Origin: a virus
Strand: one strand, 5' to 3'
IMG/VR virus record: IMGVR_UViG_3300021600_000011
Coordinates: 1-46,176 of that record
DNA: 46,176 nucleotides
Part shown: one piece after another, positions 4,870 through 43,143 of the stretch
How the letters are laid out: the number at the start of each line of letters is the position of its first letter
How positions within the stretch are numbered: the stretch's first letter is position 1
Made by a program: the position numbers and the translations under genes
The notes under the pieces: generated by a model
The model's database searches: none
What the model was told of the DNA's origin: nothing
Seen by the model: the letters and a program-made list of their open reading frames with translations, nothing else

Positions 4870-6078
4870 TTAAGCCTGAATCCGCTGGACAGAGAATGAG
4901 GAGCCGGTTACGACGTTGACTCCAAATCCAGAAGTTTGAATCAATATGTCGTAGTAATCAGTAATTACAGTAGCTTGATCTATATAAGAAAGTGAAACTG
5001 GAATCAAACTTTGAGGAGAAGCGTTTGTAGCGTTGAACTCCTGAGTCTGCAAAATATTGGAACCGTTCTTACGCAAGAACACAATTACGCTTGCAGTACC
5101 AGTGCTTCCAAGCAAGTTGAACAATGCATCAATCTTGTAGTACCCAGTGAATGGAGCGGTAAATCGACCAGTCGCAGCAGTAAATCCAGACGCGGTATCT
5201 ATTCCTGCCCAAGATCCAGAAGGAAAATCGCCAAGGCTGAATGGGTTTTTAGTTGTTGCCGCTGCAATCAGGTTGTTGCCAGTCAACCTCCGCGTAAACG
5301 TGACGTAGCTAAACGCTGCCCCGCTGGCTGTCGATGCAATGCTGATCGTGCCTGCACCCGGCGTAATCGTGATGTTTGAGCCTGCCGTCAGACTTGCCAG
5401 CGTGTATCCCGTTCCATTGCCAATGAGCAACTGTCCATTGGTTGGAATCGTGGCTACGTTTGTTCCACCTTTGGCAACCGGCAACGTGCCGCTGATGTCG
5501 CCCACAGGAACCGTTGCTGTAGTCGAAAGAAAACCTGATCCGGCTGACCCTTGAGTCTTAAGATAACCGGATGAAAACGAATTGAGGGAAGTCGCACTCG
5601 GAACCGAAGCATCTGGAATTCGTACGATGTACGTTGCTGCGGATGACGCGCCACCAGCGACGCCAGCAGGACCTTGTGGGCCAATTGCTCCTGCAAGCGT
5701 AATCAGTGAACCAGACGGAATAACCGTTGTCGGAATAGCATTTGGGATGCTTAAAAGTCCGGCGGCAGGGTTTTGAAGTGTCAGTCGAAGACCATCAACC
5801 GACAAAACCTGCATGTAGCCAAGACCTTGAACAGAGACAAAAAACTGGCCAGCAACCGATTCTGGAAGAAAGTCTGTTCCAACAACGTACGCAAAAATGC
5901 TCGATCCAAGTGCAGGCGTAACAAACGACGCGGTCGTGTACGAGAACGCGTTTACTCCGTTCGAGCCATTCGTTCCGTTAGTACCCGCTGCACCTTGAGG
6001 TCCGGGCGTGTTTACGACAATCGGATCGGAGTCGCAAGGTTGGCAACAGCCGGTTGAAGAAATAAGTTGCGACGGCAT
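4870..6078 (-). CDS. Tail fibre with collagen-like repeats and C1q-like head
   Basis: I start this at the ATG at 6078 because AAAGGA lies just upstream; a start at 6114 would run into the divergent terminase leader. The 402-residue protein has a short cysteine-rich start (GCCQPC), a collagen-like GPQGAAG stretch with GTNGTNGSNG, a second GPQGPAG at about residue 137, and a fibre shaft (NGQLLIGNGTGYT). The C-terminal 130 residues (FTAPFTGYYKIDALF and onward) resemble the C1q/TNF jelly-roll head that trimerises fibres and binds receptors. It is first in the leftward tail operon and is transcribed away from the terminase gene, so it is likely a host-recognition fibre. Confidence 0.7.
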   Translation of the reverse strand: MPSQLISSTGCCQPCDSDPIVVNTPGPQGAAGTNGTNGSNGVNAFSYTTASFVTPALGSSIFAYVVGTDFLPESVAGQFFVSVQGLGYMQVLSVDGLRLTLQNPAAGLLSIPNAIPTTVIPSGSLITLAGAIGPQGPAGVAGGASSAATYIVRIPDASVPSATSLNSFSSGYLKTQGSAGSGFLSTTATVPVGDISGTLPVAKGGTNVATIPTNGQLLIGNGTGYTLASLTAGSNITITPGAGTISIASTASGAAFSYVTFTRRLTGNNLIAAATTKNPFSLGDFPSGSWAGIDTASGFTAATGRFTAPFTGYYKIDALFNLLGSTGTASVIVFLRKNGSNILQTQEFNATNASPQSLIPVSLSYIDQATVITDYYDILIQTSGFGVNVVTGSSFSVQRIQA

Positions 6079-6132
6079 ATTTTTCCTTTCGCAGAACCTC
6101 AAGTCCAACGACAACTAATGCAAGGCCAAACT

Positions 6133-7812
6133 ATGGCAGAGCAAGTGTCAGAGCATCCATTGATCGACCACAAGTACGGGATTCGTTCGCCCGTCAAGAT
6201 TCCAGACCTAGAACTGGAACTCTACGCATTCCGAAATCGGCTCCAACCGAATGAAGGAGGTCTAGGCACTTTTGATCATTTTCGTAACGCCACGAAAATG
6301 TTATGGCCGAAGATGAGTTGGAACCCGTGGCTCGAAGCACAAGTCGAAGGTCTTTGCGAACACGACTACGTCGGATGGGCTGGTTGCGGTGCGAGCGGAA
6401 AGACTTTCGGCGCGACGCTCTTTGCGACTGTTTGGTGGCTGGCAAACCCCTCCAAGACAACTGTTGTTCTCACGTCTACAACGGCAAAGATGATCCGAAA
6501 GCGTATGTGGGCAAATCTTCAGGATCTTGTTCGGAAATCACGCGGATTCCCCGGAAACATGGTCGATTCAAAGATGAGTCTTCAGGCTATCAAAGGCGAC
6601 GACCGGCACTCGATTTCCGCTATTGCCGTCGCCGAGGGTAACACATCGAAGGCTGTGGCCAACATTCAGGGCATCCACGCCGAGCGTGTGATGGTTATTA
6701 TCGACGAAGCTACGGATACGCCTGAAGCGGCTTTCGAAGCGTGTACGAACCTTTCTAAGGGTTGCCGCGAGTTCAAGATGCTCGTCATCGGCAATCCGGC
6801 TTCAAAGTACGATCCTCATGGACGCTTCTGCACACCGGCAAAGGGTTGGCGCAGCGTAACGATTGAAGACCAGCATTGGCTGACAGAACGCGGGATGTGC
6901 CGACGTTTTGACGGCATGAAGTCGCCCAACATCAGCGAGGGCAGGACAAAGTATCCGTACCTCATCACTCAGGATCAGGTGTTATCGGCAATGCGCCACG
7001 AGGGCGAACAGAGTCCTACGTTCTGGAAGTACACACGCGGATTCTGGTCGCCGGACGGCATGGTGAAGACGGTCTTGTCCGAATCGCTCATCGAGACGCA
7101 CACACCTACAAAGAATTTGGTGTTTACCACCAATGTCCAAGTTGTTGCCGGTCTTGATCCGGGTTTTGGTGGCGACAGATGCGTCCTTCGCTTTGCCAAG
7201 GTTGGCACCGCAAACGACAAACTAAGCATACTTTTTCAGGACATTATCCAGATATCCCCTAATGCGCAGCTAACCGAGCCAGTTCATTACCAGATAGCCA
7301 ATCGGGTTAAAGAAGAATGCAACAAGCGAGGTGTTCCGCCTGACAGGTTTGCTCTTGATTCAAGCGGTGAAGGTGGCGGGTTGGCCGACATTCTGACTCG
7401 CGAATGGGGTGTGGTTCATCGCGTCGAGTTCGGCGGTTCTCCGTCAACGATTCCCGTCAGCGACGAAGACAGTAGGCCATGCAATGAGGCTTACGATAGA
7501 AAGGTGACTGAGCTATGGTTCTCGATGCGCAAATGGGCTGTTGAGGAGCGTCTGGGAGGCATGGACATCGAGACTCTTCAAGAGTTCTGTGCGCGAATGT
7601 TCGATGATTCCAAGCGAAAGATATCGGTCGAATCAAAGACCGTTATGAAACAGAGAACCGGCAAATCGCCTGATTTAGCCGACGCTGCTGTAGTCTTGCT
7701 TGATCTAGTGCGCAAAACTGCGTCATTTGAGCCGCGAGCAACAAAAACTGACAAGGTGTGGGAAAAACTAGTCAGGGACGCTGACTCAATTTATTACGAA
7801 GGAGACGTATGA
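6133..7812 (+). CDS. terL: Terminase large subunit (ATPase and nuclease)
   Basis: The 559-residue protein is the DNA-packaging motor. The ATPase half shows a Walker A loop (GCGASGKT, about 84-91) and Walker B with catalytic acid (VMVIIDEAT, about 186-194). The nuclease half shows the RNase H-like acidic residues in GLDPGFGGD (about 348-356), ALDSSGEGGG and the late DLADAAVVLLD. I choose ATG 6133 because AAGG lies eight bases upstream; ATG 6118 and TTG 6067 have no ribosome binding site and 6067 overlaps the divergent fibre gene. The stop overlaps the next start (ATGA). The likely small subunit is far away on the other strand at 22845-23282. Confidence 0.93.
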   Translation: MAEQVSEHPLIDHKYGIRSPVKIPDLELELYAFRNRLQPNEGGLGTFDHFRNATKMLWPKMSWNPWLEAQVEGLCEHDYVGWAGCGASGKTFGATLFATVWWLANPSKTTVVLTSTTAKMIRKRMWANLQDLVRKSRGFPGNMVDSKMSLQAIKGDDRHSISAIAVAEGNTSKAVANIQGIHAERVMVIIDEATDTPEAAFEACTNLSKGCREFKMLVIGNPASKYDPHGRFCTPAKGWRSVTIEDQHWLTERGMCRRFDGMKSPNISEGRTKYPYLITQDQVLSAMRHEGEQSPTFWKYTRGFWSPDGMVKTVLSESLIETHTPTKNLVFTTNVQVVAGLDPGFGGDRCVLRFAKVGTANDKLSILFQDIIQISPNAQLTEPVHYQIANRVKEECNKRGVPPDRFALDSSGEGGGLADILTREWGVVHRVEFGGSPSTIPVSDEDSRPCNEAYDRKVTELWFSMRKWAVEERLGGMDIETLQEFCARMFDDSKRKISVESKTVMKQRTGKSPDLADAAVVLLDLVRKTASFEPRATKTDKVWEKLVRDADSIYYEGDV

Positions 7813-8429
7813 GTGGATACAAGGTGCTGAACGAACACATGGTGATTCCCGGTGGATGGAGCTATCGAGTTCCTGAAACCGGAATCGAAATCGCCGGAGG
7901 ATCATGGCCGCAACTCCATGAGTTTATTCGTAACCATTACACGGCGAATGCGATTAAAATTCCCGCCAACCTTGACACTTTAATCACCGAATATGCGTGT
8001 CGTAACGGTGCCGATTGCTCTTACGACGAAGTTAATATCCCCAAGCCAGCAGGTTTGAAATCGCTTCAGCTCGGAGATGTTATCCGATTCAGCATGAGCC
8101 TTTTGCACGGGCTTACCGTTGGCGGCGGCAAGGTTGGTCAGGCGGAAGCAAATCGACGCGCAAACATTTGCTCAACTTGTTCATTCAATCGAAAGCCCCT
8201 TGGATGCACTGGTTGTAATGCTCGCGTCCTGAAGGATGCTGTTAAAACTTTTTCTCAACACGGTAGCACTCCAGTAGACGAAAGTCTGCAAAGCTGCGAG
8301 TTTTGCGGTTGCTTCATCAGGAGCATGGTTTGGTTTCCCATTGAAACCCTTCATAAATTCTCGGACGCTACAGAGAACGAAAACCTCCCGGCTCACTGCT
8401 GGAAAAAACGATCATGTACGGAAACCTAG
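7809..8429 (+). CDS. Cysteine-rich zinc-ribbon-like protein between terminase and portal
   Basis: The 206-residue protein has an unremarkable first 115 residues and a C-terminal half with clustered metal-binding residues: CSTCSFNRKPLGCTGC (about 121-136), CEFCGC (about 163-168) and a final HCW. Two zinc ribbons are likely. The start overlaps the terminase stop by four bases and the end overlaps the portal start by 16, so it is translated with both. It could assist packaging or bind the terminase-portal complex, but that is inference from position. No enzyme motif is visible. Confidence 0.6.
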   Translation: MSGYKVLNEHMVIPGGWSYRVPETGIEIAGGSWPQLHEFIRNHYTANAIKIPANLDTLITEYACRNGADCSYDEVNIPKPAGLKSLQLGDVIRFSMSLLHGLTVGGGKVGQAEANRRANICSTCSFNRKPLGCTGCNARVLKDAVKTFSQHGSTPVDESLQSCEFCGCFIRSMVWFPIETLHKFSDATENENLPAHCWKKRSCTET

Positions 8430-10660
8430 CCCAACTACCGCTCGAAACCATTAACGAGGATGGCAAAGCCCCGGAAACTCGTATCGCCGACGCGGCATCC
8501 GCTCGCGAGATATTTCAGAAGCTAATCATGGCCGATGAGCTTCGCAATAGCACTCGCGCAAAGCTTCGCGGACTCGTTGATGGAAACCCTCCGTACAATC
8601 CAGCAGAACTGCGCCGTAATAACCAAGCGTTCCGCACCAACGTCAACTTCCGTGAATCGGAAGCGTTCCTCACGTTGGCCATGTCTTCCTTCTACGACGT
8701 GTTCGCCGAAGTGCCGACGTACGCAAATGTCCGTACTGCTTACGGTAATGACATGGATAAGCGGGAGGAATGGTCGAAGATCATCACCGAAGAGTTTGAT
8801 CGTCTCCAGAAGCTCGACAAGGACTTCGACTACATCATGCAGCTCTCGCAGCGTGAGATGGTTCTCATTGGAGATGGTCCGCTCATCTTTGAGGACAACA
8901 CCAACTGGCGCTGCAAAGCCATCATGGCGACGGACCTTCTCGTCCCCGATGGCACCAAGTCTAACGTCAGCGACTGGAAGGTAGCCTGCGTCCGTACTCG
9001 CATGGGCGTAGATGACCTGTTCGAGAAGATCCAAGATGAAGAGGCGGCAAAAGCTTCCGGCTGGGACGTGAGCTACGTTCGTCAGCGTATCCGCGCTGCG
9101 ATGCCCGAACCGTATCGCTCAGGTGTGCAGTACGACTGGGAGTTTTTCCAGAAGCAGCTTCGCTCGAATGACATCACGTTCAGCGCACGTTCCGAGGTGG
9201 TCTTGATGTGCCACGTTTTCTACAAGGAATTCGATGGTCAGATCAGCCATGCCATCATCGATGAACGCGACAGCGAGAGCTTCATGTATCGCAAGCTTCG
9301 TCGGTTCAGCCGGTGGGAGCAGGTCATTCATCCGATGTATTACGACCGTGGCGACGGAGAGCATCACGGCGTAAAGGGTCTTGGCATTAAGATGCTTCAG
9401 GCGATGGAGCTGAAGAATCGTCTTCGTTGCTCCATGGTAGACAGCGCGTTTGCGCGGACTCAGATTCTGTTCCGACCCCTGAACGCGAACGCCCTAAGCA
9501 AGACCAGCGTCGTTCAACAAGGACCGTATGCGATACTTCCTCCAGACTACGAAGTCATCCAGCAGAACATTGCCGGTGTTCTGGACGCTCCTATGGCGGT
9601 CAACGCGGATCTTGAGAATGTTCTGCAAGGCAATCTCTCTCAGTATCGCCAATCGCTCAACAAGACTGGCAACCCGAGAACTGCCACCGAAATGCAGATC
9701 ATTTCGTCGCAGCAATCGGCCATAGGTAAGACTCAGTTGAGTCGGTATTACAACCAGTTGGATTCTTTCTTTGAGGAGCGGTACAACCGTGCCTCAGATC
9801 CGAATCTCAATCCAATTACCAAGTCGGACAAGGACGCCATCGAGTTCCAGCGCCGATGCAAAGAGCGTGGTGTTCCGATTCAGGCGATGATGGACATCGA
9901 CTACGTTGAGGCGACTCGTACGGTCGGCCAAGGTTCTCAGTTCGCGAAGCAGCAACTTCTTGGAACTCTTCTCCAGTTGTCCGGTTCCCTTCCAGAGGGC
10001 GGCAAAATTAACCTGCTCAAGGACTATATTGCCGCACAGGTTGGCCAACAGATGGTGGATCGTTACTTGCCCTCGCAGCTCCAATCTTCTCGCACTCAAG
10101 ATCAGGCCGCTCTTGCTGTCTTGGAACACGCTTCTCTGCATCAGGGCAACATGCCAATCGTCACCGATACGCAGAATCAGATTATCCACATTGAGACTCA
10201 CCTTGGCGCAGCGAATGAAGCAGCGTCCTCGCTTCAAGGTGGCGGTAACCCAGAGGAAATCATGCTCTTCATGCAGGGTATTGGTCAGCATGTTCAGCAG
10301 CACATCCAGCGGCTCGCAACCGATCCGTCGCGCAAGCAGCAGGTCGATGCGTACGTCCAGCAGCTTGGAATGCTTGGTGAGACTATCAAGCAGCTTGGCC
10401 AGATGCTTCAAGAACAGCAGCAGGCAATGGCGCAGCAGCAGCAAGCTCAGGCAATTCAGCAAGGCTCTGATCCTCGTACCGCCGTGATGAACGCGGAGGT
10501 TCAATCGAAAATCGCTCGCCAGAACGCCGAGACTATGGCCAACATCCAGCGTCAGAACACGAAGGCGATGGCAGATTTGTCACGCCGGAATGCGAAGACA
10601 ACCGCTGATATTCAGCGTGCGAATGCAACTGCGGAATCCAACTTGTCGCGTCAGGGATGA
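8414..10660 (+). CDS. Portal protein (podovirus type)
   Basis: The 748-residue protein follows terminase and has the size and composition of podoviral portals. It has an N-terminal helical region, a central alpha/beta part with many aromatic and charged residues, and a stretch around residues 330-450 rich in Asn and Gln where the stem and crown usually lie. The last 140 residues are glutamine-rich helices with near-repeats (ADLSRRNAKTTADIQRANA), like the long barrel of P22- and T7-type portals. The stop overlaps the next start (ATGA). The twelve-subunit portal is the DNA entry channel; the identification rests on size, position and architecture. Confidence 0.75.
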   Translation: MYGNLAQLPLETINEDGKAPETRIADAASAREIFQKLIMADELRNSTRAKLRGLVDGNPPYNPAELRRNNQAFRTNVNFRESEAFLTLAMSSFYDVFAEVPTYANVRTAYGNDMDKREEWSKIITEEFDRLQKLDKDFDYIMQLSQREMVLIGDGPLIFEDNTNWRCKAIMATDLLVPDGTKSNVSDWKVACVRTRMGVDDLFEKIQDEEAAKASGWDVSYVRQRIRAAMPEPYRSGVQYDWEFFQKQLRSNDITFSARSEVVLMCHVFYKEFDGQISHAIIDERDSESFMYRKLRRFSRWEQVIHPMYYDRGDGEHHGVKGLGIKMLQAMELKNRLRCSMVDSAFARTQILFRPLNANALSKTSVVQQGPYAILPPDYEVIQQNIAGVLDAPMAVNADLENVLQGNLSQYRQSLNKTGNPRTATEMQIISSQQSAIGKTQLSRYYNQLDSFFEERYNRASDPNLNPITKSDKDAIEFQRRCKERGVPIQAMMDIDYVEATRTVGQGSQFAKQQLLGTLLQLSGSLPEGGKINLLKDYIAAQVGQQMVDRYLPSQLQSSRTQDQAALAVLEHASLHQGNMPIVTDTQNQIIHIETHLGAANEAASSLQGGGNPEEIMLFMQGIGQHVQQHIQRLATDPSRKQQVDAYVQQLGMLGETIKQLGQMLQEQQQAMAQQQQAQAIQQGSDPRTAVMNAEVQSKIARQNAETMANIQRQNTKAMADLSRRNAKTTADIQRANATAESNLSRQG

Positions 10661-11388
10661 AAAATATTCACTTCGTACACGGTCTTCACGATGACGGTTT
10701 CAATATCTGTGAACGTGTAGCAATCGCTTCAGCTTGGATGAACAATCCCGACTGGAGCGTTTTTTTGTGGAGTCCTGAAGAGCCAACCGGCGAGCAATGG
10801 GAAAAACTGAAGGCAAAGGTTCCGGTTCGCGTGATGCCGATTGGGAACCCTAAAACGTGGAATGGGAGCAATATCCCAAAGCATCAGCATCGTGCTGATC
10901 TGATTCGCCACACGGTTCTTTACGCGATGGGCGGTGTTTACGCTGACACTGACACTATCACGGTTGCTCCATTTCCCGAAGATTGGCTGAACCACGACAC
11001 GGTCATTGGCCGCGAATTCTGCGATAACGATCCGACGATTGGCCTTTGCAACGCGGTCATGTTCTCGCAGATGCACAGCCGATTCCAATGGAAGTGGCTT
11101 CAAAAATGGCAGGAGTTTGACGGAGGGGGATGGAATGAAATTTCTGTCCAATATCCGCTCAAGATTCATCAGGAAAATCCCGGCCTAGCCAAGTCTGTTG
11201 ACTTTGAAATGCTTGGATTTATGCACTGCGGTTCCGAGAAGTATTGGGAAGGAATCCATTCGCTCGACGGATGCGTCATTGCCCATTTATGGCGTACTTA
11301 TCACGACGAGAAAATGCGCGCACTCACTGAGGAACAGATTCTAAAACGCGAAAACACCTATTGCCTTCATGCTTCAAAATATCTTTGA
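10657..11388 (+). CDS. Glycosyltransferase with DXD motif (sugar-binding DXD family)
   Basis: The 243-residue protein has the layout of the DXD glycosyltransferases that include OCH1-like and capsular-polysaccharide enzymes. It starts with a beta strand (KNIHFVHGL), has HRADLIRHTVLYAMGGVYADTD at about 78-99 with DTD as the metal and nucleotide-sugar site, and an acidic C-terminal half with a YHDEKM segment. It should transfer a sugar from a nucleotide-sugar donor; donor and acceptor cannot be read. It is coupled to the portal gene by an ATGA overlap and is the first of five genes for glycan or methyl transfer inserted between portal and scaffold. Confidence 0.8.
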   Translation: MKNIHFVHGLHDDGFNICERVAIASAWMNNPDWSVFLWSPEEPTGEQWEKLKAKVPVRVMPIGNPKTWNGSNIPKHQHRADLIRHTVLYAMGGVYADTDTITVAPFPEDWLNHDTVIGREFCDNDPTIGLCNAVMFSQMHSRFQWKWLQKWQEFDGGGWNEISVQYPLKIHQENPGLAKSVDFEMLGFMHCGSEKYWEGIHSLDGCVIAHLWRTYHDEKMRALTEEQILKRENTYCLHASKYL

Positions 11389-11935
11389 TCGAATCTACCT
11401 GACAGACGAGTGGAGCGGTGGCTCAGGACCGGGTTCAAACGCTCAAAACGCCGCAAAATACATCAAGTTCCTCAACTCGTTCATCCGAGAAAACAAGATC
11501 AAGTCCATTTTGGATGTCGGATGTGGAGATTGGCAGTTGATGTCGATGATCGATCTGTCTGGGATTAGATACAAAGGCATCGATATCAGCCCCGTTGCCA
11601 CTGCATTCGCGAAGTCAAAGGCTCCGCTCGGAACCGATATCAGCGCCGGAAACATCGAAGACATCCACGAATCATTTGACCTAGTTCACATCAAGGATGT
11701 TCTCCAGCATTTGGAGTTTTCGGAGTGCAGAAGGATTCTGGAAATCATTTCTACTCGCCACAAGTCAGCACTTGTCGTGAACGAGCATCCGGCGGTATCG
11801 CATGACATCAAGAATGGTCAGTATCGACCGTTGAGCATTGTCGCTGAACCTCTTTACTGTCCGCGTTCCACGGTCATAAAAGTCTTTACTGGCCCAATGT
11901 TCAAAAAATCAGTCACCTACATTCACCCAAAATGA
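11369..11935 (+). CDS. SAM-dependent methyltransferase (class I)
   Basis: The 188-residue protein has the Rossmann-type motif I (ILDVGCGDW, about 47-55), an acidic end of strand two (GIDIS, about 70-74) and a motif II-like FDLVHIKDVLQHL at about 105-117. These are the S-adenosylmethionine-binding elements of class I methyltransferases. The late residues (VVNEHPAV) resemble small-molecule or sugar methyltransferases. It overlaps the preceding glycosyltransferase by 20 bases and the next methyltransferase by four. In this company it may methylate a sugar, but a protein target is possible. Confidence 0.75.
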   Translation: MLQNIFDRIYLTDEWSGGSGPGSNAQNAAKYIKFLNSFIRENKIKSILDVGCGDWQLMSMIDLSGIRYKGIDISPVATAFAKSKAPLGTDISAGNIEDIHESFDLVHIKDVLQHLEFSECRRILEIISTRHKSALVVNEHPAVSHDIKNGQYRPLSIVAEPLYCPRSTVIKVFTGPMFKKSVTYIHPK

Positions 11936-12555
11936 ACGATCAATACGACTTGTTGAAGCAGTTTATCTCCGATCAATTTCCAAAAATGGGCGGCTGGTGC
12001 GACGCCGAAAAAGGATTCCAGATTGGAAAGCTTGTCCTCGATTCGAAGCCTCAGAAAATTGCTGAAGTAGGCGTTTTCGAGGGCAAATCCACTCTCGCGC
12101 TTGCCAAGGCTTGCAAGATGAATGGCAGCGGAACCGTTTACGCTATCGATTCTTGGAAGAAAGAGGACTGCATCGACGATGAGGTGGCAGCTAACCAAGA
12201 GTGGTGGTCAACTCTCGATCTGGACGGTCATTATGAGGCTTTCGTAGGCCATACTGTCCGTGCGCAGGTCGTTAAGAATATTCAGTTCTGCCGCATGTCT
12301 TCGTGGGACGCATCGCGATTCCTGCCAGACATGGACATGGTTCACATTGATGCCAACCACGCTGAATGGCCGTCTACGAGCGACGTTGTCAACTGGCTTC
12401 CGAAGCTGAAGGTTGGCGGTTACCTCGTGATGGATGACGTAAACTGGGAATCCACTCAGACCGCGATTCGTTTTGCCGAAAAATACTGCACGTTGATTCA
12501 GCGGTACGACCTCAAGGAAAGCGTGTTTTCAATCTATCAGAAGACTAAAAAATGA
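11932..12555 (+). CDS. SAM-dependent methyltransferase (class I, second copy in cassette)
   Basis: The 207-residue protein has an EVGVFEGKST nucleotide-binding loop (about 45-54), AIDSW at about 71-75 for the ribose-binding acid, and MVHIDANHAEWPSTSDVVNW followed by GGYLVMDDV. This pattern is typical of the cephalosporin-hydroxylase-like and macrocin/TylF-like methyltransferases that act on sugars and small molecules. It is not a close copy of the preceding methyltransferase. ATGA overlaps join it to both neighbours. The substrate is unknown; a glycan made or modified by the flanking glycosyltransferases is the best guess. Confidence 0.75.
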   Translation: MNDQYDLLKQFISDQFPKMGGWCDAEKGFQIGKLVLDSKPQKIAEVGVFEGKSTLALAKACKMNGSGTVYAIDSWKKEDCIDDEVAANQEWWSTLDLDGHYEAFVGHTVRAQVVKNIQFCRMSSWDASRFLPDMDMVHIDANHAEWPSTSDVVNWLPKLKVGGYLVMDDVNWESTQTAIRFAEKYCTLIQRYDLKESVFSIYQKTKK

Positions 12556-13154
12556 TTCCAATTGTCATCACTCAGCGCGGATCTAAGCGGATTGATTTTG
12601 TCACCGAGAGTCTTAAAAAAGCTGGAATCGAACGGTTCAGGTTTTTCTATGGTCTAAACGGCGCAAAGTCTGGGCTTGTCGCAACCATCAGGTATGGAGA
12701 AGACAACCCTCAGAACCCCGAGTCAATTGGTCCGAAGCATATCGGATGCACAATGTCGCATATCATGCTTTGGACGGCGCTTGAGATGGACGAAAGCGGT
12801 GCTGACTACTGGATGATTTTTGAGGACGACATTGTTCTTCGAGATGGATGGCGCGAAAAGGTTGAGCAAGCTTTGCGAGATGTTCCCAATGATTGGGACA
12901 TTCTTTTTGCTGGATCATGCTGCACAAACGGAAGGGTTGAAGAAAAAATCGCTGAAAATCTTTTTCGCTGCCATCCGCTTTGTACTCACGCCTATCTCGT
13001 TCGAAGAAAAGCGTTGAAACCGCTTCTCGAAACAAACACGGAGATTTACGCTCCGATTGATCTACAAATTTACTTCAAAACACGGCATCTTTTGAACTCT
13101 TACTCCATCCTTCCAAGGGTGGCCGACCAGTTCGAAACCGAGATTCCAGATTGA
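12552..13154 (+). CDS. Glycosyltransferase family 25-like (LPS glycosyltransferase type)
   Basis: The 200-residue protein has the features of family 25 glycosyltransferases. It starts MIPIVITQRGSKR, has a loop with GLNGAKS, the conserved IGCTMSH (about 64-70) before a helix, and MIFEDDIVL (about 88-96) with the metal-binding EDD. It ends with an APIDLQIYF segment near residue 170. This family contains lipopolysaccharide galactosyltransferases and collagen-modifying enzymes. It is coupled to the preceding methyltransferase by ATGA. It likely adds a hexose; the acceptor cannot be read from sequence. Confidence 0.78.
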   Translation: MIPIVITQRGSKRIDFVTESLKKAGIERFRFFYGLNGAKSGLVATIRYGEDNPQNPESIGPKHIGCTMSHIMLWTALEMDESGADYWMIFEDDIVLRDGWREKVEQALRDVPNDWDILFAGSCCTNGRVEEKIAENLFRCHPLCTHAYLVRRKALKPLLETNTEIYAPIDLQIYFKTRHLLNSYSILPRVADQFETEIPD

Positions 13155-13168
13155 TTTGCGCATCCATA

Positions 13169-14521
13169 ATGAAAGACATAATCCGAAGCCTTTCCCTTAA
13201 AGCTCTCAAACGATTTGCAACGGGCGGCGATGGTCCTGCCGATCTTCTTCAGGAAATCGAAGACCTTCGCAAAACGCTTGAGATTCGAACCAAAGAACAC
13301 GACGAGCATCTGACCGAGGTCCGCGAGGAGCGCGATCATTGGCTCGCTCTCTACGATGAAATCAAATTCGCAGCCGAGTTTCTAATGAGCTACGCAAAAA
13401 ACGACGTCCCCAAACTGTGCGAACAAACTGATTGGGAGACTGGCAAGATCGTCCTTCCGCAGGAAACCGGGACGTACTACTTCAATCCAGCGATTATGCA
13501 GGAGCCGGATGGCAAGATCCTGCTCTTCGCACGTCGCTGCCGTAACAAGCGCGAGAAGGATGAGGATGTCTACGTCGAGAAGAACGACATCGTTGTCTTC
13601 GAACTGAGTAAAGATTTACGAGCCACAAAGAAGGCTCTGATCCAGCTCACCTCCCATTACCCTCTCGAACAATTTGAAGACCCTCGCGTCATCAAGTTCG
13701 GCGACAAGTACGGCGTCAGTTGCGCCACGTTCATACCGTTCAAGTCATACGCGCATCAGGGCATGTTCCTTCTGGACAAGCAGTTTTTGAACGTAGGCCG
13801 CTTCGATACGATCTACGGCAACAACTACGCGCAGGCCATGATCAATGATGGCCATGAGAAGAACTGGCTCTACTTCGTCCACGATAATGCGCCGCACATG
13901 GTGTATTCGGCCAACCCTCATGTCGTTGTGCGCCTTAATGGGCGTTTAGAAAAGGAGCAGGAGTACGTCACCGACGAGTTCAATCCGCTATGGAAGTTTG
14001 GAGAGGTGCGCGGAGGATCGAATCCTATTCTTGCCGACGGTCTGTATTGGACTTTCTTCCATAGCTCTCTCCCTTGGATCAACAAGAAGCGCCGTTACTA
14101 CATGGGTGCGTACGCTTTCGAAACCAAGGCTCCATTCCGCATCGTTCGAATGACAACGCTGCCGATCCTGAGTGGCACGAACCAGCAGGACTGGTGGCCG
14201 GGATTACCTGCGGTCGTATTCCCGTGCGGCGCATTCTTTGACAGCGCAAAGAATCAATTCGTCGTTTCGTACGGCATCAACGATGTTGATTGCGGCTACA
14301 TCAAACTTCCGTTGGCCGACATGCTGGAGGTGACGAAGGTGATTCGACCCAAGCGCGATGTTGTCAACAAAGAGAAGCCGATGAGGCTAGACGACGTTCT
14401 CGATCCAATTCCCGAAAGACACAAACTCAAACGAAACAAGAAATCAAAGTATGATCAACTGGCTAAGAGGCTCGACGAAGAACCGCAAGGAGACAGCAAA
14501 GAACCTGATGCAGTTGCCTGA
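13169..14521 (+). CDS. Coiled coil plus five-bladed-propeller glycosidase/phosphorylase-like domain
   Basis: I prefer the ATG at 13169 over TTG 13151. The 450-residue protein has a coiled coil at about 24-66 and then a beta-propeller region with family-130-like landmarks: FNPAIMQEPDGKILLFARR (about 105-123), FEDPRVIKFGDKYG (about 169-182), GGSNPILADGLYWTFFHSS near 290-310 and SYGINDVDCGY near 360. Enzymes of this group cleave or phosphorolyse mannosides. The charged C terminus is rich in Lys, Glu and Asp. It closes the glycan cassette. The coiled coil may attach the domain to the virion or to a partner. Activity is not certain because I cannot confirm every catalytic acid. Confidence 0.6.
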   Translation: MKDIIRSLSLKALKRFATGGDGPADLLQEIEDLRKTLEIRTKEHDEHLTEVREERDHWLALYDEIKFAAEFLMSYAKNDVPKLCEQTDWETGKIVLPQETGTYYFNPAIMQEPDGKILLFARRCRNKREKDEDVYVEKNDIVVFELSKDLRATKKALIQLTSHYPLEQFEDPRVIKFGDKYGVSCATFIPFKSYAHQGMFLLDKQFLNVGRFDTIYGNNYAQAMINDGHEKNWLYFVHDNAPHMVYSANPHVVVRLNGRLEKEQEYVTDEFNPLWKFGEVRGGSNPILADGLYWTFFHSSLPWINKKRRYYMGAYAFETKAPFRIVRMTTLPILSGTNQQDWWPGLPAVVFPCGAFFDSAKNQFVVSYGINDVDCGYIKLPLADMLEVTKVIRPKRDVVNKEKPMRLDDVLDPIPERHKLKRNKKSKYDQLAKRLDEEPQGDSKEPDAVA

Positions 14522-14783
14522 GGTAGACATTCTCGAATGGACAACTTCGGGGCAAACAGCAGAACTTGCAGTTATTCTGCAAAATCCGCTTCTTCGGATG
14601 GCTTTACGCATCGTCGCAGAGTCGATGCCAATTCCAATGCCATCCAACGGAACCAAGGAATCTGACATTGTTTTCGCTGCCGGTGTAACCGCTGGCTACG
14701 CGCATTGTCTTGAAAACCTGCGAAAACTTGCAGTAACCGACACAACGAGAGAACCTGAAGCAACATTCGAAAAACAATATTAA
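14508..14783 (+). CDS. Small protein of unknown function upstream of scaffold
   Basis: I choose ATG 14508, overlapping the preceding gene by 14 bases; ATG 14451 in the same frame would overlap by 71 and add 19 basic residues. Neither has a clear ribosome binding site. The 91-residue product is mostly helical with a leucine-rich middle (VILQNPLLRMALRIV) and MPSNGTKESD, and looks like a soluble head-assembly accessory. It lies three bases before the scaffold-like gene. No family is recognised. Confidence 0.5.
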   Translation: MQLPEVDILEWTTSGQTAELAVILQNPLLRMALRIVAESMPIPMPSNGTKESDIVFAAGVTAGYAHCLENLRKLAVTDTTREPEATFEKQY

Positions 14784-14786
14784 TTT

Positions 14787-15971
14787 ATGGAAGAACCACT
14801 CAACTCCCCCGTAATTCACTCCGCGCAACCGCCTGACTTTGGCAACTCGTTCATCGACGCGTTCAAGGCAAACACTCTTGATGACGCCGCATCGGCTGAT
14901 GAGTCGGCCAATTCTGCCTCTCAGGTAACTGAAGAGCCTAAGCAGAAGAAGTCATCGACGCCAAAGTCTGAGTCGAATGCCAAACTCAGTAGGTCTGAGA
15001 TGGATATCGAGCAGATGTTCACTTCAAAGCAGAAGGCTCCAGCTACCGAGGATTCCTCGGCTACTGATGACTCTGGCATCCCTGAGTCCATCAAGTCTAC
15101 GAAGGCCGCTGACGCTTTCCGCAAGATCAAGGAAGAGAAGGCACAGCTCGCAAAACAATTGGACGAGTTTAAGGCTGGCAAGGTTGCCAATCCCAATGCC
15201 GAAGCGCAGTTCAAGACGTTGCAAGAGGAACGTGACGCGCTTTCTGAGCGTGTTCGCTTGCTTGATATCGAGCGTCATCCTGAGTTCGTTAAGAAATACG
15301 AAGGCAAGATTACCGGCGTGTTCGAGTCGATGAAGTCTGTCGTCGGCACTGATGGCGATAGGCTCGTTGGCCTGCTCAAGTCACCTGAAAACGACTACCG
15401 GAACTCGCAGATCGACGACATTGTCGAAGGTCTTTCGCCCTCTAAAAAGGCGAAACTTGGCGCTCTTATCGTCAAGTACGACGAAATTAACGGCGAAAAG
15501 TCTGCCGAGATGTCCGAAGCAAAGGCTGACTACGACTCGATCATCTCGAAGTATCAGCAGGAGAACGAGCAAGGCACTCGCGCTGCATTGGAGTCGGCCA
15601 ATAAAACTTGGACAAAGGTCAGCGAGAATGCCCGTGCGCTTGAAATCTTTGAGCCGCGTGAAAACGACGAGGAATGGAACACGGAGCTGAATGGCCGACT
15701 TAACCTCGCCCAACAGATCTTCAATGGCGAGAACAGCGAAGAAGACCTCGCCAAGGCCGCCCTGTGGGCCGCTGCCGCGCCAAAATACCGTGAGCTTCTC
15801 TATTCTCAGGTGGAGATAAACAAGCGCCTCAAAGCCGAACTGGCGAAGTATCGTGGAAGCGAACCCGGTGTAAGCTCGAAAGCGACGAATCCCGGCTTCA
15901 AGTCGGCGAATACTAACTCTGCCAAGAGCGAGGACTTTGTTGCCAACGTGATGAAGTCGTTAGGACGCTAA
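14787..15971 (+). CDS. Scaffold-like capsid assembly protein
   Basis: The 394-residue protein is highly charged and acidic, with a disordered Ser/Ala/Glu/Lys-rich start (about 20-110), a coiled coil (about 108-165, with repeated LAKQLDEF and RDALSERVRLL heptads), and a helical C terminus. It has no cysteine and no catalytic motif. This composition, the place after the portal operon and the size match scaffolding proteins. The capsid gene itself is on the opposite strand at 20699-21937, an unusual separation. The gene ends the plus-strand head operon just before a terminator. Confidence 0.65.
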   Translation: MEEPLNSPVIHSAQPPDFGNSFIDAFKANTLDDAASADESANSASQVTEEPKQKKSSTPKSESNAKLSRSEMDIEQMFTSKQKAPATEDSSATDDSGIPESIKSTKAADAFRKIKEEKAQLAKQLDEFKAGKVANPNAEAQFKTLQEERDALSERVRLLDIERHPEFVKKYEGKITGVFESMKSVVGTDGDRLVGLLKSPENDYRNSQIDDIVEGLSPSKKAKLGALIVKYDEINGEKSAEMSEAKADYDSIISKYQQENEQGTRAALESANKTWTKVSENARALEIFEPRENDEEWNTELNGRLNLAQQIFNGENSEEDLAKAALWAAAAPKYRELLYSQVEINKRLKAELAKYRGSEPGVSSKATNPGFKSANTNSAKSEDFVANVMKSLGR

Positions 15972-17412: not shown

Positions 17413-18828
17413 TTAGGCGATTTTGATTGTTCCAGCGTCATTGTACAATGTGCCAGAAGCAAGACCGGCAGATGATGTCGGAATGTTTGATATAATCACA
17501 CGGGTTGTGGTAGTTGCGTGATTCCAGAGTATTTGAAAACCGTTTGAGGCTCCGGTAACTTGAGCCGTGAAAACGTTTCTATCAGCACCAGATGCAACAG
17601 CAAACTGACCTCGGAATGATCCGCTTGTAGTCCCCACCAGCAAATTCCCACTCGCATCGAGGGTCATTGCTTGGGTGAGAGACACACTGTCACCGGCACT
17701 TCCAGCACCGGCAGTAGAAGTGAACCATTTGTATGCTCCATTGGCAGCATCAAGCAGGTAGTTCAACGCATATCCAGAGGCAATTTTCTTGCTACCAGCA
17801 AGAGCATAGTAGTTGGCACCTAGATAAATGCCATTTGATGTATCGTTGAAAAGGCTTCCACCGTTAGGAAGCATAACGAATTTGTATCCTGCACTCCAAG
17901 TGTTAGGCGTAACCCCCACGCCGACGTTGCCGCCAGTGGGTTGTAGAACGAGCGGAAACTGAACGCTGTTTGCAGCATTCGCAGCTTGAAGATTGAACTG
18001 GTACGGAGCAGAAGCCGATTGTTGTCCAAGCAAAGCGGCACCAAGCCCAGTTATCTGGCCAAAGCAGAACGTAGCATTTGTCCGATTGATCGTATCGTTA
18101 GCTGTCTTGAAAACATCCAGCGCGGCGACAGGAGCGTTGAACAACCCCAACCCCGTAGAGTTCAGGGTCATGGCGGTGGTGCCAGCTACGGACCATGTGG
18201 CGGTACCATCGGAAGCGATTCGATAGCGTTCAGCGGTTGCCACTCCGTTTGCGGCAACACCAAACACCATTGCGCTGGCGTAATTACCGTCCGTAGCGTT
18301 TTCCTTGATTGTTTTAATGTATCCCGCACGGCCAATCACCGTGCTTGGAGCTTGGAAAACATAACCCATGCTCAATCCGCCGCCGTTATTAATAGCAAGA
18401 GGAGATGTATCAATCACAGCCAGCGATTGAATGTCTGTTCCAGTTCCAATCGCACTGCGAACATCAAGTCTTGAACCAGCAATCGGACTCGCCGTACCAA
18501 CACCAACCCGATGATTCGTCGAATCAACCTTCAGCGTACTCGTGTCCACCGTCAGTGCGCCGGTGATGGTGGCGGAGCCAGCGGTAACGAGTCCGGCAAC
18601 GGTCAGCGCATCAGTTGTCTTGTCGAACACCAGACCGGCATCGCCTGCCAGATTCGTTCCGCCATCATTGAAGATGACCTGAGTCGTTGCGCCGGGAAGG
18701 GCGACACCACCGCCAAGAGCGGTGTATATCTCAGTGAAGTTCTGGTTGGTATAATCGAACGAGGTCCGCAGCGGCGTCCCCGTTCCGTCGTTCGGCGATG
18801 CGCCGATATTGATGGTTTGCTTTGACAT
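17413..18828 (-). CDS. Long tail fibre protein
   Basis: The 471-residue protein starts MSKQTINIGASPNDGTGTPLRT, a start typical of phage fibre and spike subunits, followed by a short helix (FDYTNQNFTEIYTAL). Many short beta-repeats follow (GNVGVGVTPNT, GNLLVGTTSG, LTVDTSTLKVDSTNHRVGVGTAS) as in trimeric fibre shafts. The C terminus ends in a GLASGTLYNDAGTIKI segment that often precedes a self-cleaving chaperone domain, but no such domain follows here. It is probably a host-binding fibre. The upstream neighbours at 18856-19501 may connect it to the particle. Confidence 0.7.
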   Translation of the reverse strand: MSKQTINIGASPNDGTGTPLRTSFDYTNQNFTEIYTALGGGVALPGATTQVIFNDGGTNLAGDAGLVFDKTTDALTVAGLVTAGSATITGALTVDTSTLKVDSTNHRVGVGTASPIAGSRLDVRSAIGTGTDIQSLAVIDTSPLAINNGGGLSMGYVFQAPSTVIGRAGYIKTIKENATDGNYASAMVFGVAANGVATAERYRIASDGTATWSVAGTTAMTLNSTGLGLFNAPVAALDVFKTANDTINRTNATFCFGQITGLGAALLGQQSASAPYQFNLQAANAANSVQFPLVLQPTGGNVGVGVTPNTWSAGYKFVMLPNGGSLFNDTSNGIYLGANYYALAGSKKIASGYALNYLLDAANGAYKWFTSTAGAGSAGDSVSLTQAMTLDASGNLLVGTTSGSFRGQFAVASGADRNVFTAQVTGASNGFQILWNHATTTTRVIISNIPTSSAGLASGTLYNDAGTIKIA

Positions 18829-19974: not shown

Positions 19975-20640
19975 TCACTGACATCCTGCAACAGGAATTT
20001 TAGCGCCTTTGGAAATATTCTCGAACGCGGTTAGAGGCTGAAGATTCGTCCAGTGGCAAAGCCGCTTAATTTCCTCCACAGACTTTGATGAAATCAGAGG
20101 AATGATGTGGTCGATGTGCCAATGCTTTCCGTAGTTCTGCCAAGTCATTCCATCTCTGAACTTCGACTCAAGATGCTTACGAAGGTCATCTTTCGAACAT
20201 CCGATGATTTCAAAGCTGCTCATCTCACCTTTCTGGCCAGCGTCAAGATACCGGCGTATTGAGCGGCGCATAGAGTTGGCCATTCGAACGAGCGGATTAT
20301 TGGCGCGACGTTTTGCTAACGACTTAGCGATTTTATCTCGGTTTTCAACTCCGTACTTCTGTTTGATCAACTTGATTTTCTCGGTGTTTTTTGCGCGGTA
20401 GAGTTTTCTTCTTTCAAAGATCGCAGCAGCGTTTTTGAGTCGGTACTCGCGTTGTACTTGCGAATACTCCAATTTCCTTGATTTGTATCGATTCTTCAAC
20501 CTCTCGTTGTTTTTCTCACGATTCGAATCAAAAACATCCTGCGTAACCCAGTATTGAAACGGGCTTCCATCTGGATTCTTTCCGCAAAAACCCCAGAAAA
20601 TCATCCCGTCTTCTCGCTTAGTTCCTCTTGATAAGTGCAT
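19975..20640 (-). CDS. HNH endonuclease, probable mobile (homing-type) gene
   Basis: The 221-residue protein has a basic lysine/arginine-rich helical N-terminal half and an HNH core at the end: HWHIDHIIPLI (about 169-179) supplies the metal-binding histidines, and NLQPLTAFEN with SKGAK completes the fold. It is a DNA endonuclease of the HNH superfamily. It starts just after the terminator downstream of the major capsid gene and is followed by a matching terminator, so it looks like a later insertion. Such genes often spread by cutting sites in related phages; a cargo role in packaging is an alternative. Confidence 0.75.
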   Translation of the reverse strand: MHLSRGTKREDGMIFWGFCGKNPDGSPFQYWVTQDVFDSNREKNNERLKNRYKSRKLEYSQVQREYRLKNAAAIFERRKLYRAKNTEKIKLIKQKYGVENRDKIAKSLAKRRANNPLVRMANSMRRSIRRYLDAGQKGEMSSFEIIGCSKDDLRKHLESKFRDGMTWQNYGKHWHIDHIIPLISSKSVEEIKRLCHWTNLQPLTAFENISKGAKIPVAGCQ

Positions 20641-26605: not shown

Positions 26606-27196
26606 ATGTTGTGGGCCATTGATTCTGTGAATGGTTCTCGGAGCCTTCCTCGCCCGAACGCTCGCGGAAAATGTCCATCCTGCGAAAGCCCTGTCATTGC
26701 CAAGTGCGGAGTAATAAACGAATGGCACTGGAGCCACTCTTCTCGCGACGACTGCGACTCATGGAGCGAACCTGAAAGCCAATGGCATATCGATTGGAAG
26801 ATGAAATACCCACGAAAATGGCAAGAGGTTCGCATGGGAAAGCATCGGGCGGATGTAAAAACCAAGAAAATGGTCGTAGAATTTCAAGCCAGTCCGATCA
26901 GTCCCGTGGACATAACCGAACGCGAGATTTTCTACGGCGAGATGGTTTGGTTGATTCGCGGCCACGATTTTCGAAAACGGTTTAAAACATGGAGAACAAG
27001 AATGCCAGATTTACACGGTTCCGCCCGATTCCAATTCAAATGGACGCGAAATCGAAAATGCTGGAATTATGCCCATGCGGGGAAGGTCATTGATTTTGGG
27101 CTTGGACAATTATTTTGGATTATCGATCTTAACGATGGCGACGGATTCGGCGAATGGATAACGGAAAACGAGTTTTTAAAATCGACAGGTTTCTGA
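26606..27196 (+). CDS. CoiA-like competence-type nuclease
   Basis: The 196-residue protein has a zinc ribbon at the start (CPSC at 23-26, KCG at 33-35, WHWSH with histidines near 41-44) followed by a nuclease core: ESQWHIDWK (about 57-65), HRADVKTKKMVVEFQAS (about 80-96) with D83, E92 and Q94, and a YGEMVWLIRG strand. This order matches the CoiA family, whose members act in natural competence and DNA uptake; the core resembles PDDEXK enzymes. In a phage it may cut host DNA. It is followed closely by the lytic transglycosylase. It is a strong family-level call; phage function is unknown. Confidence 0.7.
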   Translation: MLWAIDSVNGSRSLPRPNARGKCPSCESPVIAKCGVINEWHWSHSSRDDCDSWSEPESQWHIDWKMKYPRKWQEVRMGKHRADVKTKKMVVEFQASPISPVDITEREIFYGEMVWLIRGHDFRKRFKTWRTRMPDLHGSARFQFKWTRNRKCWNYAHAGKVIDFGLGQLFWIIDLNDGDGFGEWITENEFLKSTGF

Positions 27197-27206
27197 GAAT
27201 AAAAAT

Positions 27207-27563
27207 ATGCATCCATTACTTCTTTCGGCTCTGATTCAAATCGAATCACACGGAAATGACCTCGCTCGCGGCAAACACGGCGAACTTGGCGCGCTCCAGA
27301 TCAAACCAATCATGGTAAGAGATGTTAATCGCATCATGGGGACGCATTACGCGCACCAACAAGTAACGAATCGAGCCGTCGCGACGTTCATCGCAAACGC
27401 ATATCTTTCGCATTACGGCAAACACCTCAGCGACGAAAGCCTTGCTCGACTTTGGCAAGGTGGGCCACGAGCCATCAAGCGTTCCTCCTCCCGCGCCTAT
27501 GGCCGTCGCGTCATGCAAAAACTTTCCTCTCTCGAAACCAGTCAAACAACAGCAAAGAAATGA
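27207..27563 (+). CDS. Lytic transglycosylase (SLT-like), candidate endolysin
   Basis: The 118-residue protein has the core of lytic transglycosylases: LSALIQIESHGND (about 6-18) with the catalytic glutamate at 13, GALQIKPIMVRDVNRIMG (about 28-45) and a helical end with LARLWQGGP (about 84-92). It cleaves peptidoglycan glycan strands. There is no signal peptide. Its small size and single domain fit an endolysin; the holin and spanin-like genes are elsewhere on the minus strand at 16.2-16.9 kb. The stop overlaps the next start (ATGA). Confidence 0.75.
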   Translation: MHPLLLSALIQIESHGNDLARGKHGELGALQIKPIMVRDVNRIMGTHYAHQQVTNRAVATFIANAYLSHYGKHLSDESLARLWQGGPRAIKRSSSRAYGRRVMQKLSSLETSQTTAKK

Positions 27564-29921: not shown

Positions 29922-30746
29922 ATGAGTAATACATCGATATCAGTCGCGGCAAATCAGCCGCAGTCACTTGAACAGCAGCCTCAATCAGGAGCAGACTTCT
30001 ACTCCCAAGCATGCACGTCTCTAGACGCTGTGAAGACGCTTGGAGAGTGGATGGCCCACTCAGGACTCTTTGGACTTACCAAGGCCGAGCAAGGGTATGT
30101 TCTGGCACTTGAGTGCATTGCGAGTCAGCAAACTCCGCTGACTTGGAAGAGGTCTAACCACGTCATAAATGGCCAGATTGCCATGAAATCCGAGGCTATG
30201 TTGTCCGGTCTAATGGATGCAGGATGGGACGTGGATTGGGTGCAGTTCGACGCCCAAGCTGCCGTTGCTGACTTTTGCAAGGGGCAGAAGAAGATCCGTA
30301 TTTCGTTTACGACTGAAGATGCAAAGTTGGCCGGTTTGCTTCCTGCTAAAGCGGGGAGTGGTTGGCAGAAATTCCCAGCAGCTATGATGCGTGCGCGTCT
30401 GGTGAGCCTTGCCACAAGGATGCTCGACCCTCGCATTACTCAGGGTCGATATTGCGTTGAAGAAGTAGCCGACTTCTCCTCTGCGCCGTCAACACCCACC
30501 ATCACAACTACGACGCGCCAGACGGTGAATGTGACACCGGAACCAGCCTTCTCGCTTGTTGAGCGACTGGAGCAGATCCTTGAGCCACATTCTGATATCG
30601 CCAACGCGTTCCTCGTCAGCAAGAGCCTCATTAAGGAAGGTCAGAACTTCCGCGATGTATCCACGAAGGTGGCCAACATGATCCTCGCCGACAGCGACGG
30701 CTTCATCTCCAAGGCTAAGGCGTTCGCTAACCCTCCCACTGAATGA
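29922..30746 (+). CDS. RecT-like single-strand annealing recombinase
   Basis: The 274-residue protein shows the features of phage annealing proteins of the RecT type. It has an N-terminal polar glutamine-rich segment, LGEWMAHSGLFGLTKAEQGY (about 42-61), an ordered middle with SGWQKFPAAMMRARLVSLATR (about 146-166) that recalls the family's W..P..M..AR segment, and an end with PRITQGRYCVEEV. It anneals complementary single strands. The downstream RecE-like gene overlaps by four bases, which is the classic RecT/RecE pairing. The C terminus is likely disordered. Confidence 0.72.
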   Translation: MSNTSISVAANQPQSLEQQPQSGADFYSQACTSLDAVKTLGEWMAHSGLFGLTKAEQGYVLALECIASQQTPLTWKRSNHVINGQIAMKSEAMLSGLMDAGWDVDWVQFDAQAAVADFCKGQKKIRISFTTEDAKLAGLLPAKAGSGWQKFPAAMMRARLVSLATRMLDPRITQGRYCVEEVADFSSAPSTPTITTTTRQTVNVTPEPAFSLVERLEQILEPHSDIANAFLVSKSLIKEGQNFRDVSTKVANMILADSDGFISKAKAFANPPTE

Positions 30747-31537
30747 GCATTCTCAATCAATTCGTCAACCTCGACATGCCAGCGGAGAAGTATCACGCCG
30801 TTGATGCTCTATCGAAGTCGATGATGTCCAAGATCCTCAAGTCCCCGGCTCATTACAAAGCCGCGCTAGAGGAGCATCAGGAGCCTACAAAGAGCATGCA
30901 GATGGGTACGGCGATTCATACCGCTGTCCTCGAACCACAACTCTACTCGCAAGTCGTCGCCGTTATTCCGCCGGACATCGACGGACGTACGAAGGAAGGA
31001 AAGCAGTGGAAGGAGCAGCATAAGAGCCGCATCCATCTGACTCACGCTGAAGACATCGATGTACAAGGCGTGGCCAACTCTGTCCGTCGCCATCCGTTCT
31101 GGGACATCATTCATCTGCCGCATAGGATCGAAGCCAGCGTGTTCGCTCAAGACGAGGAAACCGGCATCGCCCTTAAAGCACGTCCTGATCTGTGGATCGA
31201 GGGTCATACGCTCGTTGACATCAAAACGACCGACGACGCATCGCCCGAGGCGTTCCTGCGAACCATCGCATCGTTTGGCTACCACATTCAGGCCGCGCAC
31301 TATCTGGAGATGACTGGCGCTGATAGCTTCATCTTCGTAGCGGTCGAGCGCAAAGCGCCATACGCCGTCGCAATCTACAAGCTGGATGCCGAGTGGCTTC
31401 AGGCTGGCGCGAATCTGCGACGCAAAGCAATCTCGACGCTGCACGAATGCCGCGCACTGGACAGTTGGCCAGCCTATCCAACAGCCGTTCAAACACTTTC
31501 TTGCCCTAAGTGGGTCTTGAATAAATCCGAAAATTAA
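30743..31537 (+). CDS. RecE-like PDDEXK exonuclease
   Basis: The 264-residue protein has the PDDEXK signature of phage exonucleases (exonuclease VIII type). It has an N-terminal YHAVDALSKSMMSKILKSPAHY segment (about 17-38), a conserved MQMGTAIHTAVLEP (about 51-64), ALKARPDLWI with aspartate near 149, VDIKTTDDASPEAF (about 158-171) with D and K, and YHIQAAHYLEM (about 181-191) with glutamine. It degrades one strand from double-strand ends to give substrates to the annealing protein. It overlaps that gene by four bases. Confidence 0.8.
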   Translation: MSILNQFVNLDMPAEKYHAVDALSKSMMSKILKSPAHYKAALEEHQEPTKSMQMGTAIHTAVLEPQLYSQVVAVIPPDIDGRTKEGKQWKEQHKSRIHLTHAEDIDVQGVANSVRRHPFWDIIHLPHRIEASVFAQDEETGIALKARPDLWIEGHTLVDIKTTDDASPEAFLRTIASFGYHIQAAHYLEMTGADSFIFVAVERKAPYAVAIYKLDAEWLQAGANLRRKAISTLHECRALDSWPAYPTAVQTLSCPKWVLNKSEN

Positions 31538-32567: not shown

Positions 32568-32752
32568 AACACCTGCACGAACTACCTGAAGACGACCGGC
32601 TGCGCAATGTGGCGCTCAAAGATATCGATGTCAGAATCCGGTGCAGACACACCGGGACTACTCGCAATCCTCGCCTCTGGAAAATCAAGGGCGACACCTA
32701 CAACCGCTTAGGCGAATCTTGGAAAACCAACTTCGACTTCATCCTGCAATGA
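32564..32752 (+). CDS. Small early protein (62 residues)
   Basis: The ATG overlaps the preceding stop, and the stop overlaps the next start (ATGA). The product begins MKHLHELPEDDRLRNVALKD and has a short IRCRHTGTTRN segment. No motif is recognised. Confidence 0.5.
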   Translation: MKHLHELPEDDRLRNVALKDIDVRIRCRHTGTTRNPRLWKIKGDTYNRLGESWKTNFDFILQ

Positions 32753-43142: not shown

Positions 43143-43143
43143 A

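Follow-up and report, generated by a model that had tools for sequence, protein, structure and literature searches.

A variable slot of glycosyltransferase and methyltransferase gene sets beside a fixed GH130-like gene in a freshwater phage lineage

Background

Few phages are known to encode virion glycans of their own, and the purpose that these serve is an open question. Capsid glycans occur in mycobacteriophages Che8 and Rita and are discussed for Maravista (PMC11256854); in that report, phage-encoded glycosyltransferases are tied to glycans on the major capsid proteins. Here we analyze a five-gene run of predicted glycan- and methyl-modifying enzymes at positions 10657-14521 of the IMG/VR virus record IMGVR_UViG_3300021600_000011, whose whole 46,176-nucleotide length is referred to below as the window. 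Comparison with related phages shows that four of these genes occupy a slot in which whole sets of glycosyltransferase and methyltransferase genes replace one another, beside a fixed gene for a GH130-like protein. Phage-encoded glycosyltransferases are common to both systems. In contrast, the Maravista genes are described near the 3' end of the genome, the paper describes no swappable set beside a fixed GH130 gene (PMC11256854), and a virion product of the present system is only proposed.

In the eukaryotic giant virus PBCV-1, the A064R protein, which combines two glycosyltransferases and a methyltransferase in three domains, produces antigenic types (PMC9614988). The PBCV-1 A064R/A061L system resembles the present locus in using virus-encoded glycosyltransferases together with sugar O-methyltransferases, the states of these enzymes give the antigenic types of the particle, and the variants arise via mutation or deletion (PMC9614988). 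In the phages described here, by contrast, separate proteins are swapped as sets. The gtr clusters of the P22/Sf type encode membrane proteins that act on the host O-antigen in lysogens. These serotype-converting clusters of temperate phages are similar in that glycosyltransferase alleles at one site yield glycan types; however, no membrane protein was found in the slot (13 proteins tested), and no integrase among the open reading frames (ORFs) scanned, a scan that left out some small ORFs. Marine metaviromes (PMC3909814) and freshwater actinophages (PMC10202952) have also revealed phage genomes that are conserved except for short variable islands, but these hold mainly host-recognition genes, and PMC3909814 mentions no glycosyltransferase or methyltransferase.

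Cassette composition in related phages

The run in the window consists of five tightly packed, co-oriented ORFs that overlap by 4-20 nt, and all five products scored above the curated Pfam cut-offs in profile searches:

10657-11388, plus strand: GTd, DXD glycosyltransferase that opens the type A cassette (Gly_transf_sug, PF04488, 2.6e-13)
11369-11935, plus strand: MT1, class I S-adenosylmethionine (SAM) methyltransferase (Methyltransf_11, PF08241, 2.5e-9; phrog_3382, 2.8e-18)
11932-12555, plus strand: MT2, Methyltransf_24 O-methyltransferase (PF13578, 1.4e-19)
12552-13154, plus strand: GT25, family 25 glycosyltransferase that closes the swappable set (Glyco_transf_25, PF01755, 2.1e-13; phrog_2835, 6.8e-17)
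13169-14521 (ORF listed from 13151), plus strand: GH130-like propeller-family protein with an N-terminal helical region; fixed gene that bounds the slot on the right (Glyco_hydro_130, PF04041, 6.5e-10)

The enzyme families named in the initial annotation, which was made from the sequence alone (a DXD glycosyltransferase, two SAM methyltransferases, a family 25 glycosyltransferase and a propeller glycosidase-like protein), were all recovered in this way. GTd carries an ADTD motif near residue 97 and lacks a transmembrane (TM) helix. The MT2 family borders on sugar O-methyltransferases: its homologue MT2b scored above the cut-off for TylF, the macrocin O-methyltransferase (31.1 vs 23 bits).

No relative was found by DNA comparison among 50,697 deposited phage records, and a protein search of the same records gave only terminase-level similarity plus one weak GH130 match; MT839999, an unannotated 5.6 kb record, matched at E 5e-3. 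This agrees with the initial view that the combination is not among the described phages. In IMG/VR, we found at least 135 relatives by GH130 and at least 150 by portal, and examined the best 80 of each. The portal-based search is unbiased towards GH130, and every contig found by it that reaches far enough carries the GH130-like gene. After removal of identical sequences, 62 loci with complete cassettes remained, including the window. The GH130-like gene is open and intact in all of them (62/62), whereas the slot between the portal stop and the GH130 start holds, without gaps, one of at least nine sets made up solely of glycosyltransferase and methyltransferase genes:

Type A (the window): GTd-MT1a-MT2a-GT25c
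Type B: MT2a-GT25b-F3-GT25a
Type C: GTd-MT1b-GT25d-MT2b
Type D: F6-F3-GT25a
Type E: GTd-GT25d-MT2b
Type F: MT2a-GT25b
Type G: F6-MT2a-F3-GT25a
Type H: GT25e-F3-GT25a-MT2b
Ninth architecture (L085 and L380): GTd-MT1b-GT25d

F6 matches Glyco_transf_7C (E 5e-5) and exopolysaccharide glycosyltransferases, and F3 has a weak methyltransferase match under the cut-off. An alignment-based search for distant relatives recovered only the same loci. Between the terminase large subunit (TerL) gene and the scaffold gene, five complete relatives vary strongly at the cassette and nowhere else. Different types occur within the same metagenome, for example in 3300002835 (A and B), 3300031951 (B and C), and 3300037042 (A and F). 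We consider an exchangeable slot of glycan enzymes beside a fixed GH130 gene to be well supported and very likely.

Since the GH130-like gene is fixed while the other four genes swap as sets, the five genes are not the unit that the initial annotation had proposed: the GH130-like gene is core, and the other four form one interchangeable set among at least nine. The gene order of the window is shared by some close relatives, but many lack its set and carry another instead. The homologues are not scattered, however. The 50 GTd relatives found all belong to contigs of this lineage, and wherever the gene context was read they occupy this slot.

Exchange between related phages

Mapping of cassette type on the portal DNA tree required at least 25 changes, where 7 would be the minimum, and the mean after shuffling was 34.5, so that type is still somewhat clustered on the tree. 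The borders of the exchanged DNA are sharp:

10650-10660, plus strand: left border of the exchanged DNA, at the stop codon of portal (within a single 60-nt step, identity drops from 95-100% to ~40%)
13155-13230, plus strand: right border of the exchanged DNA, at the start codon of GH130 (in most pairs, identity climbs within 60-180 nt from ~40-55% to 88% or more)

Unlike in most pairs, the difference between L148 and L149 continues into GH130. The window itself is a recombinant, with a backbone nearer to L003 and a cassette nearer to L007. Its DNA identity with L003 is 96% in TerL, 95% in portal and 96% in GH130 vs 75-87% in the cassette, while with L007 the respective values are 90, 89 and 88% vs 92-95%. 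Plausible exchange machinery is encoded by the phage itself, including a single-stranded DNA-binding protein (SSB), a Holliday junction resolvase and two predicted recombination proteins:

29922-30746, plus strand: RecT-like annealing protein (phrog_561, 1.8e-8)
30743-31537, plus strand: RecE/exonuclease VIII-like protein (phrog_412, 2.9e-78; PF12684)

The cassette enzymes are under purifying selection. For each cassette family tested, the median ratio of nonsynonymous to synonymous substitution (dN/dS) was 0.05-0.13 (GTd 0.05, MT1 0.08), with no stop codons or frame breaks; the values for portal and TerL were 0.06 and 0.04. Because the families are intact and their dN/dS is low, diversity at this locus arises by swapping whole conserved enzymes.

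Flanking genes and the sister lineage

The cassette is located inside the head operon, as the initial annotation had placed it, with overlapping genes in one run with TerL, portal-like and scaffold-like genes:

6067-7812, plus strand: TerL, conserved left backbone (phrog_2, 6.8e-24)
8414-10660, plus strand: portal-like protein by order and size; its gene bounds the variable slot on the left
14451-14783, plus strand: small conserved gene overlapping the GH130 end
14787-15971, plus strand: scaffold-like protein by order and size (25% identity with its sister-lineage counterpart)

Across relatives, TerL is mostly 87-100% identical at the protein level, and portal is 85-99% identical. The gene order (TerL, x, portal, small, scaffold) is that annotated in MW202879 (terminase, x, connector, small, scaffold, capsid). 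The portal and scaffold labels follow this order and the gene sizes; profile searches (Pfam, PHROGs, PDB, and comparison with MW202879) gave them no sequence support, and the capsid likewise had no profile match in MW202879, PHROGs or PDB. A structure model of the portal-like protein was too poor for a fold search (predicted local distance difference test, pLDDT, 39). The listed starts of TerL (6067-6133, plus strand) and of the collagen-like gene on the opposite strand (6078-6114) overlap head to head; since relatives begin there (ORFs of L044), ATG 6133 is the probable start of TerL, and the collagen-like gene probably begins at an ATG inside its listed frame. In G006, G008 and G010, the reported TerL stretch contains one in-frame TAA, probably upstream of the true start.

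In a sister lineage, whose portal is 25% identical to that of the window lineage, the portal-scaffold gap is only 247-260 nt in 57/57 measurable loci and contains one small gene similar in size to that at 14451-14783. In 74 sister-lineage loci, we found no homologue of the glycosyltransferases, the methyltransferases, GH130 or the collagen-like protein of the window lineage. The cassette is therefore rightly called inserted relative to the sister lineage. This lineage-specific difference may have arisen because the window lineage gained the genes or because the sister lineage lost them, alternatives that two lineages cannot separate.

The GH130-like protein

The start of this protein is ATG 13169 (450 aa), since that ATG is conserved in all 62 loci. 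The protein is 86-96% identical across relatives, scores 38.9 bits against the PF04041 cut-off of 26 bits, and matches NF050092 at 3.3e-12, yet far under the equivalog cut-off. Its PDB matches are beta-mannoside phosphorylases. N106, E170-D171 of the FEDPR motif, and D372 are invariant in 16 rows and were aligned with 5b0p and 7fip, and a low-identity profile alignment makes them the apparent counterparts of key residues in BT3780, a GH130 enzyme with an invariant catalytic Asp (D142) and other -1 subsite residues (PMC4599007). The same kind of low-identity alignment provisionally places D239 and E279 at positions of basic phosphate-binding residues in 5b0p/7fip, and the three such residues of the phosphorylase subfamilies GH130_1/2 are, as far as this alignment goes, not all present. 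E170 precedes the catalytic Asp, and the D239-E279 spacing of 40 is close to the 41 of E227-E268 in BT3780, a comparison made without direct alignment to BT3780. The apparent replacement of the basic residues by acids, as in the hydrolase group, provisionally points to hydrolase chemistry.

Compared with the known beta-mannoside phosphorylases and mannosidases of this family (PMC4599007), the phage protein has a family score above the Pfam cut-off, an ED motif and apparently conserved key residues, but differs by its added N-terminal helical region. The coiled coil that had been proposed for this protein is plausible, with helices at 24-44 and 50-78. The AlphaFold2 model, however, has a pLDDT of only 38 and was rejected as a basis for a fold search. 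The 765-position profile phrog_28262 matches GTd near its N-terminus (3.6e-5) and GH130 near its C-terminus (1.1e-5), which suggests that the two are fused elsewhere.

Proposed function of the cassettes

Because interchangeable enzyme sets occupy one slot, the related phages probably build different sugar coats. We propose that the slot between the portal-like and GH130-like genes would be an allelic, serotype-like glycan locus of this phage lineage. Its cytosolic glycosyltransferases and O-methyltransferases, translated along with the head genes and presumably expressed late, would draw on host sugar nucleotides and SAM and assemble a short, partly O-methylated glycan, most likely on a late virion protein. 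The fixed GH130-like protein might carry out a step common to all types, such as trimming or scaffolding. Whole sets would be traded among related phages via homologous recombination in the conserved flanks, probably driven by the RecE/RecT-like proteins, yielding near-identical phages with different glycans.

We give a probability of roughly 0.5 to the cassettes building glycans on a virion protein. Such an acceptor is favored because the enzymes appear soluble, the genes lie in a head-gene context, and viral precedents exist (PMC11256854, PMC9614988). TM helices were absent from 13 representative cassette and GH130 proteins, with maximal 19-residue hydropathy of 0.57-1.49. We hold more tentatively that one phage population has many virion glycan types, maintained by selection, through a fixed GH130 gene and a glycosyltransferase and O-methyltransferase slot exchanged by recombination. 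What would be new, if this somewhat doubtful extension is true, is a phage analogue of the bacterial serotype locus with many virion glycan types per population.

Family 25 glycosyltransferases include collagen galactosyltransferases, and a fibre-like gene product is, by analogy only, a candidate acceptor:

4870-6114, minus strand: collagen-like, fibre-like protein with GXY stretches, candidate glycan acceptor

GXY stretches were found in 14/16 near-complete genomes and in L150, the other two being incomplete near this region, and the sister lineage has none. The protein could also simply be a gene of this lineage.

Covariation of genes with cassette type, after removal of backbone distance, gave no clear link outside the slot in 16 genomes, a sample of low power. 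The lowest uncorrected p among 24 non-cassette genes was 0.027, and the two hypervariable genes described below had r of -0.02 (40179) and 0.10 (43144). Tuning to receptor type is therefore mildly disfavored.

Several points weigh against a glycan on the virion. The system is known from its genes only, and the portal and scaffold identities rest on gene order. GT25 and Methyltransf_24 proteins act also on lipopolysaccharide (LPS) and exopolysaccharides, and there is no evident reason for a freshwater phage to vary a virion glycan. The covariation test is limited to 16 genomes and has low power, and within it the tail fibre gene at 17413 had r 0.17, with an uncorrected p of 0.037 among 26 tests.

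Alternatively, the cassettes may alter a host surface glycan late in infection, either the LPS core or a lipid-linked intermediate at the cytosolic face, and thereby block superinfection or spare progeny re-adsorption to debris; the types would then track host surface types. GT25, a family of LPS biosynthesis, and Methyltransf_24 are common in surface polysaccharide loci, LPS-core enzymes are likewise soluble, and it is typically the host-facing genes of phages that vary (PMC3909814). However, the slot has neither GtrA/GtrB-like membrane proteins nor TM helices, lies within the head gene run, and does not clearly covary with the variable adhesin-like genes. On balance, we regard an action on host glycans as unlikely.

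The intact appearance of the GH130 active site, of hydrolase type (compare PMC4599007), and the N-terminal helical region in the low-confidence model are also compatible with an aid to receptor binding, in which a glycan or the GH130-like protein displayed on the particle modulates either a weak attachment to host envelope glycans or their degradation, and cassettes match host glycan types. This is quite improbable: GH130 is constant whereas cassettes and adhesins vary, no tail-protein signature was found, and cassette type has no clear link to adhesin genes.

Phage genomes are mosaic and other islands in these genomes vary too, so ordinary gene shuffling at a permissive site, with no common functional theme, might be invoked. 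Such non-adaptive mosaicism is very improbable, given that in every relative the slot holds solely glycosyltransferases and methyltransferases, with no empty or broken example, and that purifying selection acts on it. Finally, modification of phage DNA bases against restriction, a common interpretation of phage glycosyltransferases (PMC10202952) that also fits an MT2 match to a PHROG named 'DNA methyltransferase', is extremely improbable, since no base-precursor enzyme (hydroxymethylase, thymidylate synthase-like) was seen among the ORFs scanned, with some small ORFs again left out, the enzymes belong to families that act on sugars or proteins (glycosyltransferases) and on small molecules (O-methyltransferases), and the genes lie in the head operon.

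If the product is indeed placed on the virion, the surface chemistry of the particle would evolve via cassette exchange, independently of tail fibres. The natural swaps on near-identical backbones are matched sets (for example, L148/L149, L134/L037 and L055/L056). They could reveal the role of the glycan, its carrier protein, and whether its type follows host, receptor or phage-phage competition.

Host hint and other genes of the window

A host search in 84,980 genomes gave one match, a 4.8 kb phage contig (L161) that is 93% identical to the window and is binned in an uncultured Nitrosomonadales metagenome-assembled genome. We take this as a weak hint to Nitrosomonadales, not as an assignment. 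The 92531-base contig IMGVR_UViG_3300021962_000056 (L150/L177) has terminases at 9.6 and 49.6 kb that are 94% and 30-32% identical to that of the window. Two such unlike terminases rule out a 2x concatemer; because the second is only distantly similar, the contig joins two different phage lineages and is probably a chimeric assembly.

Other regions of the window vary as well. The two hypervariable genes at 40179-44547 (minus strand; 987 and 467 aa) lose identity or coverage between close relatives, have a weak match to the internal virion protein family phrog_342, and possibly encode host-contact proteins. The product of 17413-18828 (minus strand) has an N-terminus like that of tail fibre connectors and a very variable remainder. 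An HNH endonuclease gene at 38920-39681 (plus strand) has no match in five relatives, and the gene at 19975-20640 (minus strand) is also patchy; both are possible mobile endonuclease genes. A ferredoxin-like gene at 32641-33291 (plus strand; phrog_3704, 5.6e-16) is present in only some relatives, and a gene with a CoiA-like N-terminal domain at 26606-27196 (plus strand) is absent from five complete relatives. The gene at 27207-27563 (plus strand) encodes an SLT transglycosylase domain and is likely a lysis or entry enzyme.

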